Assembly: GCA_009909005.1 (NCBI GenBank)
Contig: JAAAOG010000152.1
Location: 1 to 64,000, forward strand
Length of the DNA stretch: 64,000 nucleotides
Reading direction: 5' to 3'
Origin: Alphaproteobacteria bacterium
GTDB lineage: Bacteria; Pseudomonadota; Alphaproteobacteria; DSM-16000; Inquilinaceae
The notes under the pieces were generated by a model. The model searched no databases and was not told where the DNA came from. It worked only from the letters and a program-made list of their open reading frames with translations. A program made the position numbers and the translations under genes. Positions 34,751-42,621 of this stretch are shown here, one piece after another (position 1 is the stretch's first letter; every line of letters starts with the position of its first letter).

Positions 34751-35215
34751 ATGAAACTCTATGAAATTTTCTTTCGTCCCGATCTTGAGGAATCTGCGCA
34801 GGAGCAGGACGAGATCGCCGAAGCCGCCAATCTGCTCCAGACCGGCGAGTTCCAGGTCCTGCAACTGGCCTATTATGAATGGTTCGGGCGGGAACTGGCC
34901 GAATCGGAAACGGACAAGCTGTTCTCCGAGTACATGATCGGGAAACAGGTCCCGTTCTGGGCCCGCGACTATGCCCGGCGCATCCTGGCGCTGGAACAAG
35001 GTGGCCGGCTGGACGCCGACAATCCCCTATATCATCGCTATGATCGGGAGTATATTACGTCGGTTCCGGACGGGGTGCGGCGCTTCTGGCTGGCGACCTT
35101 CTGGTGCACGTTCATCGTCTTCGGCGGCATCGCCCTTGCCACCCTGGTGGCGCGGGAGCCGATGTCGATGCTGCCGCCCTATTTCGAACGGACGGAACTG
35201 CCGGACCGGCAATAG
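34751..35215 (+). CDS. Hypothetical protein with a C-terminal membrane helix
   Basis: A 154-residue protein. It starts after GGAGGGCTC. Residues ~1-110 are soluble and charged (EESAQEQDEIAEAANLLQTG, WFGRELAESETDKLFSEYMI), and a single hydrophobic helix lies near the C-terminus (FWLATFWCTFIVFGGIALATLVA). It is probably a cytoplasmic domain tethered to the inner membrane. I do not recognise the family. A small membrane protein gene follows at 94 bases on the same strand. Confidence 0.7.
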   Translation: MKLYEIFFRPDLEESAQEQDEIAEAANLLQTGEFQVLQLAYYEWFGRELAESETDKLFSEYMIGKQVPFWARDYARRILALEQGGRLDADNPLYHRYDREYITSVPDGVRRFWLATFWCTFIVFGGIALATLVAREPMSMLPPYFERTELPDRQ

Positions 35216-35308
35216 GAAAGGCGCTGGCGAAGCGCGCTTGCGTCGCAATCAAAGGAATGCCGCACCTATCGCGTGCGTGCCGGGCCGACCGAGGAGGGTC
35301 AAGACGAT

Positions 35309-35512
35309 ATGTTCGAATTTGCCGGCGCATGGGAAACGCCGATCAACATTCTCTTCTTGATCGTCACCGGTGCCATTGCCTGGCACGGTATCCGGTATCG
35401 CGACGCAGAGGGCAGGACCGATTTCGTCCGGCTGCTCTTCGGCTGCATCGCCGCCGTCTACTTCCTGATGGTGTTGCTGCAGGACGTTCTCGGGGTTGTG
35501 CGCTTCGCCTGA
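35309..35512 (+). CDS. Small two-helix membrane protein, unknown
   Basis: A 67-residue protein with two predicted membrane helices (INILFLIVTGAIAWHGI and LLFGCIAAVYFLMVLLQDVLG) and a charged loop (RYRDAEGRTD). A GAGGAGGG sequence lies 7-8 bases further upstream than ideal. It follows the 34751 gene on the same strand. The function is unknown. Confidence 0.55.
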   Translation: MFEFAGAWETPINILFLIVTGAIAWHGIRYRDAEGRTDFVRLLFGCIAAVYFLMVLLQDVLGVVRFA

Positions 35513-35554
35513 GCAGGCGAAGCTCGCGCGGCCCAAAGGCCAGTCCCGTTCGGC

Positions 35555-36202
35555 TCAGGGCCGGTACATGCGCTGCTCGGCGTCCTGCTCCGGAATGCGC
35601 AGCCTGCGCTCTTCCTCCGGAAGCTCCAATTGCGTGGCAATATACACGGCGCGGTCACGGACCGTCGCGGGATGCGGCTGATGGATTATCCGGTCGACAA
35701 GAGCGGGGCCGGACACGGTCTCATCGTCGATCGTAATTGCCTGCATATAGTGTTCCAGCGCTTGCTCATAGCGGCCCATACGATCGAAAACAATGCCGAG
35801 ATTGGCGTGCGCCGCCGCCAGGGCCCCCCGGCCCGTCAGGTCGTCGTCTTCGAGTGTCTCGTTCAGGAAGGCGATCAGATCCCGCAGCTGGGCGATCGCC
35901 TCCTCATAGCGCTCGGTCTGGATGAAGACGAGAGCCCGGCCCATCAGCGCACCGCGATGATTGGGGTGCGCCTCCAGCGCCCGGTCGAAGGCCTCCAGCG
36001 CCGACTGGTATTCGCGCGCCGCCATCGTCTCATTGCCCTGATTGGCCTGAGAATAGGCGGTGGTCAGGTGTATATCGCCCTGCCGGGTTTCGTAATCGCC
36101 CGGCGGCGGCGAGAAATAGTGGAAACCCAGGGCGACCACCGGCACTGCCAGGCTCATGACGATGCAGATGATGATAAAGCGTCGAAGGACTCGCGGGTTC
36201 AT
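35555..36202 (-). CDS. Membrane-anchored tetratricopeptide-repeat protein
   Basis: A 215-residue protein with an N-terminal membrane segment (residues ~8-28) and at least three TPR-like units: QSALEAFDRALEAHPNHRGALMGRA, VFIQTERYEEAIAQLRDLI and AAAHANLGIVFDRMGRYEQALEHYMQAI. TPRs mediate protein contacts. The ATG overlaps the stop of the upstream small membrane gene (ATGA at 36199-36202), so they are coupled and may act together. The partner is unknown. Confidence 0.8.
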   Translation of the reverse strand: MNPRVLRRFIIICIVMSLAVPVVALGFHYFSPPPGDYETRQGDIHLTTAYSQANQGNETMAAREYQSALEAFDRALEAHPNHRGALMGRALVFIQTERYEEAIAQLRDLIAFLNETLEDDDLTGRGALAAAHANLGIVFDRMGRYEQALEHYMQAITIDDETVSGPALVDRIIHQPHPATVRDRAVYIATQLELPEEERRLRIPEQDAEQRMYRP

Positions 36203-36447
36203 GGCGACCTGTGGAAGAGCCAGTAGGTGTAGAGAAACGCCATCACGAAACAGAGCAACCCTGCGGTCACCGCAGCACGGTGCTTTAGGCGGGTGCGGAC
36301 CTCGTCGGGGACCTCCGCCTGTTTCGACTTCCGGGACCAGCGGTTCACGCTCATCATCCAGATAAGGCGCCAGACCGGGTAGAACAAAGCCGCAGTGAGC
36401 AGCACGGCCCAAGCCACCCAAGTCCCCTGAGAAAAGATCGCCTCCAT
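36199..36447 (-). CDS. Small membrane protein upstream of the TPR gene
   Basis: An 82-residue protein with two hydrophobic segments (VAWAVLLTAALFYPVWRLIW and AAVTAGLLCFVMAFLYTYWLF) and a basic loop (RWSRKSKQAEVPDEVRTRLKHR). It is coupled to the TPR gene by a four-base overlap. It lies behind the symporter gene, separated by a strong terminator. Small membrane proteins often sit beside SSS transporters (DUF4212/DUF485 types), but I cannot place this one in a family. Confidence 0.65.
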   Translation of the reverse strand: MEAIFSQGTWVAWAVLLTAALFYPVWRLIWMMSVNRWSRKSKQAEVPDEVRTRLKHRAAVTAGLLCFVMAFLYTYWLFHRSP

Positions 36448-36592: not shown

Positions 36593-38770
36593 CTATTTGC
36601 CGCCTGCCGTCCGCGGCGGCGTCACGACGTCGCCGATATCTTCCGTCAGCGCTTCGATTTCGCGATGCGGTATGGTCGACATCTCCATCTTGTAGGCCAG
36701 CAGCCACATCATTACGACACCCAGGACCCAGAACAGGATCTGCCAGGCCCAGATCGACGGCATGCCGAACACCCAGGTATCGGGCTGGTCGGGAATGCCG
36801 AAGATGGTGTTGCCGATGACCGCACCGGGGCCGATGCCGAAGATCAGCCAGCCGATGGTGACGCCCCAGGCGATCGGCTTCAGCTTCTTCTTGTCCTCGC
36901 TGAGGCCGGCATGCGAGCGGAGGAAGTTGTGGAACTTCATCCGATGCTCGGTTGAATCACTCGTCTGGGTCATGGCCGAGACGATGATGCACACGCCTGC
37001 ATTGAACAGCATGCCCCAGCCGGCCGAGTGGATGGTCAGCGGCCAGCGGCCCCACGGCAGCACCCCGCCGGTGATCTGCTGGCCGATGGTCTCGGTCAGA
37101 ATCACTGCGATAAGACCGGCCGCCAGGCCCAGGGTGGCGCCCTGGCGGGTGATCCACGGGATCCAGCAGATGCCGGCCAGCGCCACCCACATCTGGAAGC
37201 CGAACGCGACGGCCAGACCGCCGAGCAGCACCAGAGCGTCGGTGGAGAAGGTCGCCACCAGCAGCGCCGCGATGACGATGAAGGCGACGCCGATTCGGCC
37301 CCAGAGTTTCTGGACGGTGTGATCGGCCGTCGGGTTCAGGTAACGCTTGTAAAGGTCGCGGGTCAGCATGGAGCCGGCGGTGGACATATAGGCGGCACCG
37401 GTCGACTGCATGGCGGCAAGGCCGCAGACCGCGAGAATGCCGACCAGCCACGGCGCGGCGTCGGCCAGCAGGTTGAAGTAGTACGGGACCAGGCTGTCCG
37501 GTTTGACCGCGATGTTTTCCGGGATGATCAGCCGGTAGAGCTCCGTGCCTTCAAGGGCCGCTGCATCCCCGTTCTCCAGGAAGCTGGCCACGGCCGCCTG
37601 ACCGGCTTCGCGCCGGGCTTCGAGCGTGTCGCCCTCGCCCAGGGCAATGATCTGCCGGACCTCCAGGTCGTTGCGCAGATGGCCCTCGGCCATCGCCGTA
37701 TCGACATCCGCCGGCAGCGTGTACTCGACGGCGACATCTCGCCGTTGCAATTCCTCCCACATATCCGGAGTCGCATTGACCTGCGGATTGCCGCCGAGCA
37801 TGTGCGCGCCCATGCCCTGGAAGGCCGTGAAGAAGAACAGGATCAGGCCGATCGCGAAGGAGGAGGCCCAGACCTGCTGCGGCGCGAAGGGGCGCGGATC
37901 GGTGTTGCCGAAGGCCCACATGGTAAAGGCCGGGGCGGATTGGATGCCCATCAGCGCGAACATGTAGGTCAGCACCATGATGCCGGTCCACAGACCGCCG
38001 ACCGGTGTTTCCTTCCCGAGACCGGCGGTAAACTGAATCACGCCCGGTATCGCGTAGTAGGAGACATACTCGCCGCCGGCCCAGCGATCGGCCCCCGGAT
38101 TCTGGGCATGCAGCCCCATCATGCTGGTCAGGCCGTCGAAGCCGCCCACGGCACTGATGGCGATGATGCCGGTGATGATGATGCCGAGCGCCAGCAGAAT
38201 GCACTGCATGGTGTCGACATAGGCCACGGCGCGGAGGCCACCCGAGGCGACATAGATCAGCACCACCAGCGACAGGATCCACATGCCGACGTTCACCGGG
38301 ATCAGGCCGTCGGTCAGGACGCTGAACAGGAAGCCCGAAGCGCCGAGCTGCACGCCGAGATAGGGGATGGAGAACAGCAGGGCCACGATGACGGTGAGGA
38401 TGCGGATGGCATCGCCCTGGTAGTAGTCGGACAGCATTTCGCCGGGGGTCACATAGCCGAAGCGCTTGCCCAGCATCCACTGCCGCTTGAGGAACATCAC
38501 GCCCGTGAAGGGGATGGTGATGACGTAGAACGACGCGTAGGCGTACTGAAACCCGTCGCGATAGACCAGTCCCGGATGGCCCATAAAGGTCCAGCCCGAG
38601 AATGACGTTGCAGTGGCCGCCAGGATGAACACCCACATCGACAGCCGACGGCCGGCGATGAAGTAGTCGCTGGCGGTTTTCGTCATCTTCATCCCTTTGA
38701 AGCCCATACTGATACAGTATGTCCAGTACAGGATGACGAAGACGAAGAGCCAAATGACTTTCGCTTCCAA
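36593..38770 (-). CDS. Sodium:solute symporter (SSS family) with a ~105-residue inserted domain
   Basis: A 725-residue transporter with about 13-14 membrane helices. TASDYFIAGRRLSMWVFILAA, ATSFSGWTFMGHPG and GAAYMSTAGSMLTRDLYKRYL are SSS motifs. Residues ~325-430 form a soluble, charged insertion between helices (LQRRDVAVEYTLPADVDTAM, DTLEARREAGQAAVASF) that ordinary acetate or proline symporters lack. The substrate is unknown; an organic acid is plausible. A promoter lies far upstream (39006-39033), giving a long leader. The divergent gene is a CBS-DUF294 protein, a pairing also seen for ActP-like transporters. Confidence 0.9.
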   Translation of the reverse strand: MEAKVIWLFVFVILYWTYCISMGFKGMKMTKTASDYFIAGRRLSMWVFILAATATSFSGWTFMGHPGLVYRDGFQYAYASFYVITIPFTGVMFLKRQWMLGKRFGYVTPGEMLSDYYQGDAIRILTVIVALLFSIPYLGVQLGASGFLFSVLTDGLIPVNVGMWILSLVVLIYVASGGLRAVAYVDTMQCILLALGIIITGIIAISAVGGFDGLTSMMGLHAQNPGADRWAGGEYVSYYAIPGVIQFTAGLGKETPVGGLWTGIMVLTYMFALMGIQSAPAFTMWAFGNTDPRPFAPQQVWASSFAIGLILFFFTAFQGMGAHMLGGNPQVNATPDMWEELQRRDVAVEYTLPADVDTAMAEGHLRNDLEVRQIIALGEGDTLEARREAGQAAVASFLENGDAAALEGTELYRLIIPENIAVKPDSLVPYYFNLLADAAPWLVGILAVCGLAAMQSTGAAYMSTAGSMLTRDLYKRYLNPTADHTVQKLWGRIGVAFIVIAALLVATFSTDALVLLGGLAVAFGFQMWVALAGICWIPWITRQGATLGLAAGLIAVILTETIGQQITGGVLPWGRWPLTIHSAGWGMLFNAGVCIIVSAMTQTSDSTEHRMKFHNFLRSHAGLSEDKKKLKPIAWGVTIGWLIFGIGPGAVIGNTIFGIPDQPDTWVFGMPSIWAWQILFWVLGVVMMWLLAYKMEMSTIPHREIEALTEDIGDVVTPPRTAGGK

Positions 38771-39375
38771 GACGCACTCCTCCTCTAGCCTGGGCCTTTT
38801 TTACGGCTGACGTCCGGCAGCCATGCCGGTCCGCAACCGGGCCCGTGTCGTATCTTCAGTTAAACGAGGCCTACTCCAACGGGCGAACGCTTGTTCTTAT
38901 TTGCTCGCCCTGCCAGTCCCTTCTCCGGGGACATCGTTGTGCAGGAACGGTCCCGATCCGGAACCGGCGGCCTCGCCCGCAGACGAAATCCCCTCCCAGG
39001 ATCGGACTATACCATAAGGATGCGTACGGGCAAGCACATGACCGCCCTGGGTCGAAGGGCTTTTGCCGCGTCCGGCGTGTCGCCAATCGTGCTGTCGCCG
39101 TGCCGCCCACCGCATCCGGCACACCCCGCCGCTTCCGGGCCCTCCGGCCGCCTGTCGACGGCGTGGCCGGCCTCGCCAGCCTTAGCCTTTTATTTACGGG
39201 GCCTTATCTGTATCCTTCTATTGCGGCTGCGAAGGTTTCCCCTGTCGACCCTGCCGGGCCTCGTCCCCTCGCCGGTCGCGCCGTATGCCGCGCACGAGAC
39301 TCCCTGCTCGCGTGACACCGTGCCGCATTGGTGGGGACGGTTGCACGAGACCGCAGAGGGATGGAGACCCGCCCG
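38771..39375. promoter_or_regulatory. 605-base divergent control region between the symporter and CBS-DUF294 genes
   Basis: No convincing gene despite several open frames. It holds a minus-strand promoter for the symporter at 39006-39033 (entered separately), a leader of roughly 230 bases, and an AT-richer patch at 39180-39230 (TTATTTACGGGG and CTTATCTGTATCC) that may serve the divergent gene. I see no riboswitch that I recognise. Confidence 0.5.
39006..39033 (-). promoter_or_regulatory. Promoter of the symporter gene
   Basis: Read on the minus strand: TTGCCC, 16-base spacer, TATAGT. The start point would be near 38999, leaving about 229 bases of untranslated leader before the symporter ATG, long enough for RNA-level control. 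Confidence 0.55.
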
Positions 39376-40836
39376 ATGGGCATCCAAACGCAGATTTACC
39401 GGCTTCTGGCCGGCAATGTGATGCGCGACAAGCCCGTCGTCCTCTCCCCGGGCACCCCCTGCCAGGTCCTTGTCCGGGCGATGGCGGAGCAGGGCGCCTC
39501 CTGCGCCTTTGTGGTCGACGGGTCCGGGAGCGTCCTCGGCATCCTGACCGAACGCGACGTCACCCAGCGCATCACCTTCCGCGCCGATCCGGACACGCCG
39601 GTGGACCGCATGATGACCTCGCCGGTGCGTACGATCGGCGAGGGCGAGTACCTGTACCGGGCCATTGCCATGATGCGCCGGCAGGGCGTGCGCCACATGC
39701 CGGTGGTGGACCGGGCCGGTCATATTGCCGGTGTCCTCGACCTCCACGATGCCGTCGCCGTGGCGACGGAGCGGCTGATGCGGCAGATCGACCGGCTGAC
39801 GGTCGAGGGCACGATCGAAGGGCTGCGCGCCGTCAAGACCGCCCAGGTCCAGCTGGCCCAGGAGCTGTTCGACGAATCGGTGGCCGCACCGGAGATCCAG
39901 CAGCTGCTGACCGATATCAACCGCGACATCTATCGCCGAGTCGTCCGCGGCACGCTGGCGGCGATGGAGGCCGACGGCTGGGGCCCGCCGCCGGTCGACT
40001 TCGACCTGCTGGTCATGGGCTCGGGCGGGCGCGGCGAGAACTTCCTGCTGCCGGACCAGGATAACGGCCTGATTCTGGCCGACTATCCAGACAGCGAGCA
40101 CACGGCCATCGACGGCTTCTTTATCGAGTTCTCCGAGCGGATGACCCGCGACATGGACGCCGTCGGCTTCCCCTTCTGCAAGGGCGGCGTGATGGCCACC
40201 AATCCGCTCTGGCGCAAGACGCTCAGCCAGTGGATCGACCAGACAGCCTCTTGGGGTCGCAAGCGCAATTTCATGGTGGCGCGCCTGGTCGGCATCTTTT
40301 TCGATTTCTGCGCGGCGTACGGCAGCACCGAGATGACCCTGGAGCTGCGGCAGCACGTCACCGTCACCATGGGCCGCTCGCCCGGTTTCCTGCGCGAGCT
40401 TTACAAGGACGAGGCGGATCATGGCACGGCGCTCGGCTGGTTCAGCCGCCTGGTGGTCGAGCGCAGCGACAGCGACAAGCGCGGCCAGATCAATCTCAAG
40501 ATTCACGGCCACCTGCCGCTCGTGGAAATGACCCGCCTCCTGGCACTGCGGGAAGGCATTTCCGATACCCGGACCCTGGCACGGATCGAAGAATTGACGG
40601 CGAAAGGCGTTTTAAGTCGTGATCAACGGGATTATCTTGTCAGCAGTTTCTCCCACCTGACCAAGCTGCGCTTGCGCCAGCAGATCCAGGACTACATGGC
40701 CGGCCAGCCCGTCTCCAACCATGTCCGCCCCGACGACCTGACGCGCTACGAACGCGAACTGCTTGTCGAGTCGTTCCGGTCGATCGAGGATCTTCGCAAC
40801 AAGGTCCGGGCGGAATTCACCGCAGACCTGTTCTGA
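39376..40836 (+). CDS. CBS-pair plus DUF294 nucleotidyltransferase-like regulator
   Basis: A 486-residue soluble protein. I use the ATG at 39376 (GGAG nine bases upstream); another ATG is at 39361. Two CBS domains come first (residues ~15-135; VRAMAEQGASCAFVVDGSG, ILTERDVTQRI, RQGVRHMPVVDRAG). Then comes a DUF294 nucleotidyltransferase-like domain with VMGSGGRGENFLLPDQDNGLI, and the DUF294 C-terminal substrate-binding part. CBS pairs sense adenine nucleotides; GlnD-like NTase domains modify proteins or nucleotides. The motif has G-S-x-GRGE and D-x-D, so it may be active. The target is unknown, possibly the divergent symporter. Confidence 0.9.
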   Translation: MGIQTQIYRLLAGNVMRDKPVVLSPGTPCQVLVRAMAEQGASCAFVVDGSGSVLGILTERDVTQRITFRADPDTPVDRMMTSPVRTIGEGEYLYRAIAMMRRQGVRHMPVVDRAGHIAGVLDLHDAVAVATERLMRQIDRLTVEGTIEGLRAVKTAQVQLAQELFDESVAAPEIQQLLTDINRDIYRRVVRGTLAAMEADGWGPPPVDFDLLVMGSGGRGENFLLPDQDNGLILADYPDSEHTAIDGFFIEFSERMTRDMDAVGFPFCKGGVMATNPLWRKTLSQWIDQTASWGRKRNFMVARLVGIFFDFCAAYGSTEMTLELRQHVTVTMGRSPGFLRELYKDEADHGTALGWFSRLVVERSDSDKRGQINLKIHGHLPLVEMTRLLALREGISDTRTLARIEELTAKGVLSRDQRDYLVSSFSHLTKLRLRQQIQDYMAGQPVSNHVRPDDLTRYERELLVESFRSIEDLRNKVRAEFTADLF

Positions 40837-40923
40837 CAGTCGCCGCCTGCAGAGACGTACGGTCAGGCGTACGGCTGCGGCAAGGACGGCAACGCAGAAG
40901 ACGAACGGAGGACGCGTACAGCC

Positions 40924-41181
40924 ATGACCCGCGAAACCCGGACCGCCGCGGCGGCACAGCTTGGGCGTCTGCCCGACCCCGCCGCCCTTTTCCGTCTGGC
41001 CGTACGCCTGATGCCGGCATTCGCCCTGTTCGCCCTCGTCCTGGCCGACGATCCGCTGCTGCAATGGCTGTCGCTGCTCGGCTTCCTGCCTCTTGGTCTC
41101 GCCCTTGTGCCGGGAGCGCCGGCCTGCGGTGCCTGCCGGGCCGGCTCGCCGGGGCGTTCCGTCCTCCCGCCGGCGCATTGA
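40924..41181 (+). CDS. Small membrane protein between DUF294 and exonuclease genes
   Basis: An 85-residue protein with two hydrophobic segments (LMPAFALFALVLA, LLQWLSLLGFLPLGLALV) and a Cys-containing C-terminus (PACGACRAG). GGAGGA lies somewhat far upstream. It falls between two genes of the same direction, 87 and 63 bases away, so it is likely in the same operon. I recognise no family; a weak DUF2892 resemblance in the last helix is not enough to name it. Confidence 0.45.
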   Translation: MTRETRTAAAAQLGRLPDPAALFRLAVRLMPAFALFALVLADDPLLQWLSLLGFLPLGLALVPGAPACGACRAGSPGRSVLPPAH

Positions 41182-41244
41182 GCCGGTTCCCGGCGCTCAC
41201 CCCGTTCCCGACGCCGACCGCCGTCCCCCTTAAAGCCCGGCGCG

Positions 41245-42621
41245 ATGAGAAAACCCAAGCGCAGCACCATCAACGGCGCGGTCTGGCTGATCGGCGCTTC
41301 CCTGCTCGGGCTGCTCGCCATACCGCTGCTGATGGCGGTCCGGATCCTGACCCTGGACTTCTCCGCGATCGGCCTCGGCACGGTGCTGGTGCTGGTGCTG
41401 GTTGCTGCCGGCGGCGTCGGTCTGGCGATCCTGTCGCAGGAGATCAACGGCCATCTCGACGATCTGGAGCGGCTGCGGGGCGATGTCGTGATGATCGGAG
41501 GCACCACGACCGAGCTGCCCCGGCGGTGGTCGGAAGACGCCCGTCCCGACGATGAGCTGAAGCGGCTCGCCGGCACGATCAGCGACATGCTGGGCCGCGA
41601 GCGCGCCCAGCGCTCCCGTCCGGATGCCCGGCTGGAGGCCGTTGTCGGGGCCGTGGCCGACGGGCTGGTGGTGGTCACCGACAGCGGCCTGATCAGCCTG
41701 ATCAACCACGCCGCCAGTGTCCTGCTGGGCAATGTCCGGGCCGGAGTGGGGACCAGCGTCTATGCCGCCCTGGAACGCGAGGACGTGATCGCCGCCATGG
41801 CCCGCGCGCGCGCCGCCCGCCGGCCGGCCTCGGCGATGATCCGCACGGTTGACGGCGACTATCTCGCCACCCGCGTCGCCGATCTCGGCGAGCATGGCGG
41901 CACCGCCCTGTCGTTTCACGCCACGGTGCTGGAGACCAGCACCGGCGTCTCGCACGATCTCGGGCTGCTCGACCGGCTGCCTGCCAAGCGGCCGGTCGAC
42001 GAGGACACGCCGCTCATCGACCTGCCCGTGGTGGTGCTGGACACCGAGACCACCGGCCTCAACGTCCGCAGCGACCGCATGGTGTCGGTCGGGGCGGTGC
42101 GGGTACACGGCTCGCGGGTCTTCCACAACGCCAATATGGACCGGCTGGTCAATCCCGGCCTGCTGATTCCGGCGCGCTCCACGGCCATTCACGGCATCAC
42201 CAACCAGATGGTGGCCGGGGCCCCACCCTTCGGCGAGATCGCCGGGGAGGTCGAGGATTTCGTCCGCGACACCGTCGTGGTGGGCCACAATATCCGCTTC
42301 GATCTCGCCATGCTGAAGCGCGAGACCGAGCGCGCCGGCCTGCCCTGGTCGCCGCCGCGCAGCCTCGACACCAGCCTGCTGGTCATCGCGCTGGAGCCCA
42401 ATACCGAGAACCTGAACCTCGAATCGGTGGCCGAGCGCTTCGGCGTCGAGATCCAGGGCCGCCACACCGCGCTGGGCGACTGCCTGGTGACGGCGGAAAT
42501 CTACGTGCGCATGGTGCCGCGCCTGCACGACCACGGCATCAGCACCCTCGGCCAGGCCATCCGCTTCCAGACCAAGGCCAAGGAAATCATCGGCCTGCAA
42601 GAGGAGTCGGGCTGGTCGTAG
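41245..42621 (+). CDS. Membrane-anchored PAS domain-DEDDh exonuclease fusion
   Basis: A 458-residue protein. Two membrane helices (residues ~10-31 and ~42-63) are followed by a linker, a PAS-like domain (~130-230; VVGAVADGLVVVTDSGLISLINHAASVLLG) and a DnaQ-type 3'-5' exonuclease domain (~255-440). Exonuclease motifs are VVLDTETTGL, VVGHNIRFDLAML and GRHTALGDCLVT, so the catalytic Asp/Glu/Asp/His/Asp set appears intact. Related proteins lie beside actP-like symporters and CBS-DUF294 genes elsewhere. The substrate may be nucleic acid or a small nucleotide. The PAS input and membrane tether suggest signalling rather than repair. Confidence 0.88.
   Translation: MRKPKRSTINGAVWLIGASLLGLLAIPLLMAVRILTLDFSAIGLGTVLVLVLVAAGGVGLAILSQEINGHLDDLERLRGDVVMIGGTTTELPRRWSEDARPDDELKRLAGTISDMLGRERAQRSRPDARLEAVVGAVADGLVVVTDSGLISLINHAASVLLGNVRAGVGTSVYAALEREDVIAAMARARAARRPASAMIRTVDGDYLATRVADLGEHGGTALSFHATVLETSTGVSHDLGLLDRLPAKRPVDEDTPLIDLPVVVLDTETTGLNVRSDRMVSVGAVRVHGSRVFHNANMDRLVNPGLLIPARSTAIHGITNQMVAGAPPFGEIAGEVEDFVRDTVVVGHNIRFDLAMLKRETERAGLPWSPPRSLDTSLLVIALEPNTENLNLESVAERFGVEIQGRHTALGDCLVTAEIYVRMVPRLHDHGISTLGQAIRFQTKAKEIIGLQEESGWS

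Follow-up and report, generated by a model that had tools for sequence, protein, structure and literature searches.

The locus and its two enzymes

The window analyzed here is a 64,000-nucleotide stretch of alphaproteobacterial DNA (contig C12 of a draft genome; positions 1 to 64,000 of JAAAOG010000152.1), in which a gene for an SSS-family symporter is divergent from one for a CBS-domain nucleotidyltransferase (NTase), itself followed by a membrane-anchored exonuclease gene. An earlier note, made from the sequence alone, had described this arrangement, which we confirmed, and had read the three genes as one possible system in which a nucleotide signal is made and broken to control transport. 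Here, we report that the NTase and the exonuclease form a recurrent and sometimes fused pair, whereas the symporter is not an obligate part of it. The principal features (TM, transmembrane segment; AF2, AlphaFold2) are as follows.

36593..38770, minus strand: SSS (SLC5) symporter, 725 aa, TTG start as listed (PF00474, 1.2e-32)
39376..40836, plus strand: NTase, CBS-CBS-DUF294-DUF294_C, 486 aa (Pfam, AF2, fold comparison)
40018..40062, plus strand: NTase motif G215-S216...D227-Q-D229, invariant in homologues
40384..40818, plus strand: DUF294_C helical domain of a GlnD/HEPN-like clan (Pfam, 3.3e-40; clan per PMC3710099)
41245..42621, plus strand: exonuclease, two-TM hairpin, helix, PAS-like and DEDDh domains, 458 aa (Pfam, TM scan, AF2)
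42031..42504, plus strand: DEDDh domain with D266, E268, D353, H407 and D412 (intact in 62/62 complete homologues)

The NTase matched Pfam models for two CBS domains (7.8e-22), DUF294 (2.4e-38) and DUF294_C (3.3e-40), with no N-terminal cNMP-binding domain in the Pfam search and no RNA-binding domain found. The GS...DQD motif and D310 were invariant in 94/94 homologues, and the CBS1 motif GhhTxxD, which in many CBS proteins binds the ribose-phosphate of adenine nucleotides, was retained in 85/94. The best fold matches of its AF2 model (pLDDT 88.9), covering catalytic and helical domains, were GlnE (3k7d, E 3.4e-8; 1v4a, TMq 0.53) and DrrA (6yx5), which also topped the matches for the catalytic domain; the 50 fold matches listed included no CCA-adding enzyme or poly(A) polymerase and no cGAS, OAS-like or CD-NTase structure. 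A sequence search of the NTase/DUF294_C part against solved structures returned no match. PADLOC models, which would include CD-NTases, did not match the NTase, and a CBASS or other defense reading was rejected on that ground; the PADLOC DEDDh models matched only the generic exonuclease domain.

The exonuclease carries an RNase_T/DEDDh domain (Pfam, 7e-32), and its modeled fold matched PolC, DnaQ, DinG, RNase T and TREX1. All five D-E-D-H-D catalytic residues were intact in 62/62 complete homologues, so that the loss of catalytic residues in most homologues, which had been raised as a way for the idea to fail, was seen in neither enzyme. The earlier note described the protein as a membrane-anchored PAS-exonuclease. 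In the AF2 model (pLDDT 88.2), a two-helix membrane hairpin precedes strands and helices that are arranged as in PAS-like domains, and PAS exceeds the Pfam cutoff in a 701-aa homologue (L037; 25.2 > 22.6 bits), but it falls below that cutoff in the window protein (15.9 < 22.6 bits, 0.013), and both the anchor and PAS vary among relatives. An anchor is frequent in the clade of the window protein and in the sister clade, but missing from ActP-type exonucleases and from the fusions described below. Some 26 relatives of ~700 aa (including those at L053, L057, L063 and L128) have the layout TM-PAS-HisKA-like-DEDDh with the phosphoacceptor histidine replaced; these would be an exonuclease output on a pseudo-sensor-kinase scaffold.

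Linkage and fusion of the pair

In public genomes, 79 loci were recovered whose orthologues share at least 48% identity, nearly all of them from alphaproteobacterial and some gammaproteobacterial metagenome-assembled genomes, and a class-wide comparison of the window NTase with 241 genomes gave 40 neighborhoods of all DUF294 subtypes with ~14-kb flanks. In the class-wide set, an RNase_T gene lay nearby in 28/40 loci and an SSF gene in 28/40 (both in 19/40), against 0.66 expected for each from gene density (binomial P ~5e-41, relatedness ignored). Co-occurrence no greater than chance, also raised as a way for the idea to fail, was not observed. Eight of the 12 loci without a separate exonuclease gene, once counted as lacking the enzyme, proved to carry it as an N-terminal extension of the NTase chain, and the two are therefore linked in 36/40 loci (28 separate and 8 fused). 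The fusions, with the layout RNase_T-CBS-CBS-DUF294-DUF294_C, 705 to 731 aa in length and with both active sites intact, come from seven families and represent one or two origins on the NTase tree; a phylum sample yielded five single-frame fusions, all within the window's class. Linkage holds across three deep NTase clades (~24 to 34% identity), one of them the ActP-type clade, whose members have cNMP domains. Of the orthologue loci, 46 extended at least 6 kb to either side; among these, the exonuclease was nearby in 33, the window type of SSS in 28, and the exonuclease together with an SSS of either type in 23.

At one locus (L035:7269-12648, G004 contig C20), a single exonuclease gene is flanked by two DUF294 genes of different clades, which suggests that two writers share one eraser.

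The pair also recurs in the window's own genome, where three of the four DUF294 genes are directly followed by an RNase_T gene. There are five RNase_T genes in all, the fourth of which adjoins an SSS-kinase gene on contig C154. This contig (L041) carries a tandem triad of ActP, cNMP-CBS-DUF294 and PRK09145 exonuclease genes (NCBIfam, ActP 875 > 750 bits, exonuclease 264 > 189 bits), in which the three families are those of the window, but as a co-directional operon with a soluble exonuclease and an NTase ~24% identical to that of the window. A cNMP-binding domain is present in the DUF294 paralogues of C154 and C130. The fourth DUF294 paralogue (G000:C143; L040:8524-9978) is solitary, with no exonuclease or SSS nearby.

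The symporter and its five-gene unit

The range covered by the earlier note (36593-42621) omits four conserved neighbors of the symporter, at 34751-36447:

34751..35215, plus strand: u155, 154 aa, one predicted TM (homologues beside SSS in 36/95 loci)
35273..35512, plus strand: s67, small membrane protein, ORF (open reading frame) of 79 aa with a conserved part of ~67 aa (homologues, 34 loci)
35555..36202, minus strand: TPR protein with one N-terminal TM (Pfam TPR; homologues, 43 loci)
36199..36447, minus strand: s82, 82 aa, two TMs, overlapping the TPR gene (TM scan; homologues, 28 loci)

Beyond the symporter, the conserved order runs s82, TPR, then s67 on the opposite strand and then u155. 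Homologues of s82 lie directly downstream of SSS (28 loci), and s82 is possibly a small subunit of the symporter. Over 65 aa, the s67 protein shares 65% identity with its L054 counterpart, and a Pfam search with u155 gave no family match. Homologues of u155 also occur in SSS loci without the NTase, and the whole SSS-s82-TPR-s67-u155 series is a conserved five-gene membrane unit that is found without the NTase and exonuclease too (e.g., L170-L178).

The symporter itself exceeded the Pfam cutoff for the SSF domain (113.7 > 22.8 bits, PF00474) and fell below every NCBIfam subfamily cutoff, including those of PutP, VC_2705 and MctP, with no ActP match listed; these scores place it in a distinct SSS subfamily. 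Relatives in other families are 69 to 81% identical across both halves. The symporter carries about 80 additional residues near 333-415, which it has in common with the proteins of G004 and G012 and in place of which ~655-aa relatives have a short loop. Among the 241 class genomes, the NTase subtype was present in 15, the window SSS type in 17 and both in 8 (Fisher P 5e-7, uncorrected), and in class-wide DUF294 loci the pair also adjoins other SSS subfamilies. Since the five-gene unit is found without the pair and other SSS subfamilies can stand next to the pair, the reading of the symporter as an obligate third component was rejected; the symporter is an associated, interchangeable partner of the pair. 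From its context, its substrate would be a short-chain monocarboxylate.

Intergenic regions and wider neighborhood

Two further features lie between the principal genes:

38771..39375, no strand: divergent SSS/NTase intergenic region (24 orthologous regions compared)
40924..41181, plus strand: 85-aa hydrophobic ORF between the NTase and exonuclease genes (no Pfam match)

A search of the 24 SSS/NTase intergenic regions for a shared operator found no dyad, and only Shine-Dalgarno-like 7-mers were prominent. This search was for dyads in general; the ACTU motif that marks CrbR/ErdR-controlled promoters is a gammaproteobacterial definition. The exonuclease gene follows the NTase gene on the same strand after a gap of 408 bp (40837-41244), and the two are only tens of bp apart in several relatives. 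The 85-aa ORF in this gap had no Pfam match and no homologue in any conserved flanking-ORF cluster; with these searches empty it was rejected as an accessory gene, and it is probably not a conserved gene. As candidate conserved genes, the ORFs that separate the two genes in L043, L044 and L045 were likewise rejected: they were unrelated or spurious, one being a receiver domain.

Clustering of flanking ORFs in relatives outlined a larger module (variable members in parentheses): u155, s67, TPR, s82 and SSS, and then (ScfR), (response regulator), (SSS-histidine kinase), NTase, (response regulator) and exonuclease, with ettA often part of the conserved neighborhood. ScfR is an XRE/M78/PF09856 short-chain fatty acyl-CoA regulator (Pfam, relatives), whose gene is divergent from SSS in 11 distinct loci at a distance of 47 to 453 bp, and a kinase of ~918 aa (SSF-HisKA-HATPase) adjoins the NTase in relatives. 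The window locus has no ScfR, kinase or response-regulator gene, and a search there for remnants of these and of ettA found none; a candidate ettA near 19 kb of the window was rejected, with generic matches only (25 to 32% identity). In Rhodospirillales-like genomes (L052, L054, L058, L062, L101 and others), ettA and mlaA/mlaC are conserved neighbors of the pair. A further family, 222 to 236 aa long and unmatched in Pfam, immediately adjoins the NTase or exonuclease gene at several loci (L035:9096-9764, L039:7981-8691, L114).

A putative writer and eraser of one nucleotide mark

From the genes, domains, intact active sites, linkage, fusion and fold described above, we propose, with a probability of about 0.48, that the pair comprises the writer and the eraser of one reversible nucleotidylation. 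The CBS-DUF294 NTase would add a nucleoside monophosphate (NMP) to a protein, with the SSS symporter, the small protein that partners it or an acetate/pyruvate-entry enzyme as candidate targets, under the control of the CBS pair, which would probably read adenine nucleotides. The DEDDh domain would hydrolyze the protein-NMP phosphodiester to 5'-NMP under the control of PAS or a membrane signal, and the outcome would be a tuned uptake or entry of short-chain monocarboxylates. The protein target, the identity of the NMP, the active state and the control of transport are the parts of this scheme that we infer.

An NTase linked to, and sometimes in one chain with, a 5'-NMP-releasing hydrolase is consistent with a nucleotide mark that one enzyme writes and the other erases, and the fusion makes this a concrete hypothesis. 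A protein target is favored by the GlnE/DrrA fold together with the GlnD-type helical domain, and further context comes from the PF09856 regulator and the SSS-domain histidine kinase of relatives and from the own-genome pair beside a true ActP. The eraser step is chemically reasonable because the DEDDh subunit epsilon hydrolyzes the 5'-p-nitrophenyl ester of TMP, according to the review PMC7694242, which cites Hamdan 2002, and because RNase Z acts as the deAMPylase of SelO targets (PMC12663964); the p-nitrophenyl ester of TMP is an aryl-NMP ester, as is Tyr-NMP. In Pseudomonas putida, deletion of the exonuclease gene PP_0353 delays growth on pyruvate and deletion of the NTase gene PP_0354 does not, and an actP-I deletion delays growth on pyruvate as the PP_0353 deletion does (PMC9927547). 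Were PP_0354 to inactivate a transport component that PP_0353 reactivates, a modification left in place would block uptake and a growth defect would be expected in the eraser mutant alone, which fits these phenotypes. The control of transport raised as a possibility in the earlier note stays conditional, though the published mutant phenotype points that way.

Several points weigh against the writer-eraser proposal. Four of the 40 class-wide loci have no linked exonuclease (one is on a truncated contig), the orientation of the exonuclease relative to the NTase varies (24 on the same strand, 29 opposite), the SSS unit exists without the pair, and we know of no DEDDh enzyme that acts as a protein de-nucleotidylase. 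In addition, the authors of the P. putida study propose mRNA degradation (PMC9927547). The more specific claim, that a DnaQ-fold DEDDh enzyme would serve as a dedicated protein de-nucleotidylase, as the partner of, or in one chain with, a CBS-controlled, GlnE-like NTase, and form a new reversible switch on SSS-type monocarboxylate transport, we regard as possible with the odds against it.

Among the alternatives, it is unlikely that the pair acts on RNA, with the NTase extending a 3' end (e.g., of tRNA) and the exonuclease trimming it. The DEDDh domain does resemble RNase T, DnaQ and ExoX, and a one-chain fusion is also compatible with adding to and trimming the same end, but the fold neighbors of the NTase are GlnE and DrrA rather than, among the 50 matches listed, RNA-modifying enzymes of the CCA-adding or poly(A) type, the search for an RNA-binding domain found none, and the association with SSS would be left unexplained. 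We consider improbable the view put forward by the P. putida authors (PMC9927547), with which the differing behavior of the single mutants agrees, that the exonuclease degrades mRNA of transport or central-carbon genes and that the NTase, encoded in the same operon, acts separately as a CBS-controlled regulator; fusion in seven families and linkage in 36/40 loci argue instead for one process.

Of the make-and-break idea in the earlier note, the coupling of the two enzymes is upheld by their fusion, but its version with a nucleotide signal, in which the exonuclease breaks a diffusible nucleotide, cyclic or linear, that comes from the NTase, is very unlikely. An NTase and a DEDDh hydrolase are both present, and short RNAs are broken down, as far as 2-mers, by DEDDh enzymes such as oligoribonuclease (PMC6768110); on the other side stand the lack of a PADLOC match, CD-NTases included, and of cGAS/OAS-like structures among the 50 fold matches listed, and a DUF294_C domain of the GlnD, protein-substrate type. 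Reversible protein nucleotidylation is likelier than such a signal, given the GlnE/DrrA fold neighbors and the absent PADLOC match. A conserved neighborhood of co-regulated acetate/pyruvate genes inherited together without a joint mechanism, as the persistence of ettA and mla genes nearby and of SSS units without the pair might indicate, is a poor explanation for a pairing that is seen repeatedly, in differing gene orders, beside more than one SSS subfamily and as a single fused chain.

The pair occurs widely across Proteobacteria; its annotation goes no further than DUF294 and "exonuclease", and the single phenotype published for it comes with no mechanism. Our results suggest that it is an uncharacterized on/off switch for carbon uptake. 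If true, reversible nucleotidylation by this pair would bring DEDDh enzymes into protein nucleotidylation as a class of erasers, connect acetate/pyruvate uptake with an adenylate-sensing CBS module, and explain why, in P. putida, the exonuclease mutant has a phenotype and the NTase mutant does not.

Comparison with known systems

The NTase-exonuclease pair is partly known, and the window represents a new architectural variant of it. PP_0354/PP_0353 is an NTase/exonuclease pair in the MxtR/ErdR regulon of P. putida (PMC9927547), and no PP_0354 PP_0353 double mutant appears in the strain table of that study. Similar loci are P. aeruginosa PA3233/PA3232, beside PA3234 actP and PA3235, and PFLU5625 (MxtR/ErdR being the CrbS/R regulon). 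As in the window, a CBS-NTase gene is followed by a DEDDh gene and linked to a gene for an SSS transporter, here one for acetate/pyruvate (PMC9927547, PMC5715377, PMC9765439). In contrast, the Pseudomonas NTases carry a cNMP-binding domain and lie in or near ActP operons, whereas in the window the NTase lacks such a domain, the exonuclease has a TM anchor with a PAS-like domain, and the symporter is of a type other than ActP. The ~918-aa SSF-HisKA-HATPase kinase beside the NTase of relatives resembles SSS-histidine kinases of the CrbS/CbrA/RpuS type, which are absent at the window locus, and the response regulators of relatives are short (e.g., 125 aa and receiver only in L037), unlike the LuxR-type CrbR.

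GlnE and GlnD share with the window NTase the GS-DxD NTase fold and a helical partner domain, and they combine writer and eraser in one chain, as the fused homologues would. The proposed eraser here is a DEDDh exonuclease, as opposed to a second NTase in GlnE and the HD domain that is the eraser of GlnD, and sensing would be through CBS rather than ACT domains or PII. RNase Z, whose fold is that of the metallo-beta-lactamases, is likewise a nuclease that takes AMP off a protein, but it does so as a moonlighting enzyme and not as a dedicated eraser fused to, or encoded beside, its writer.

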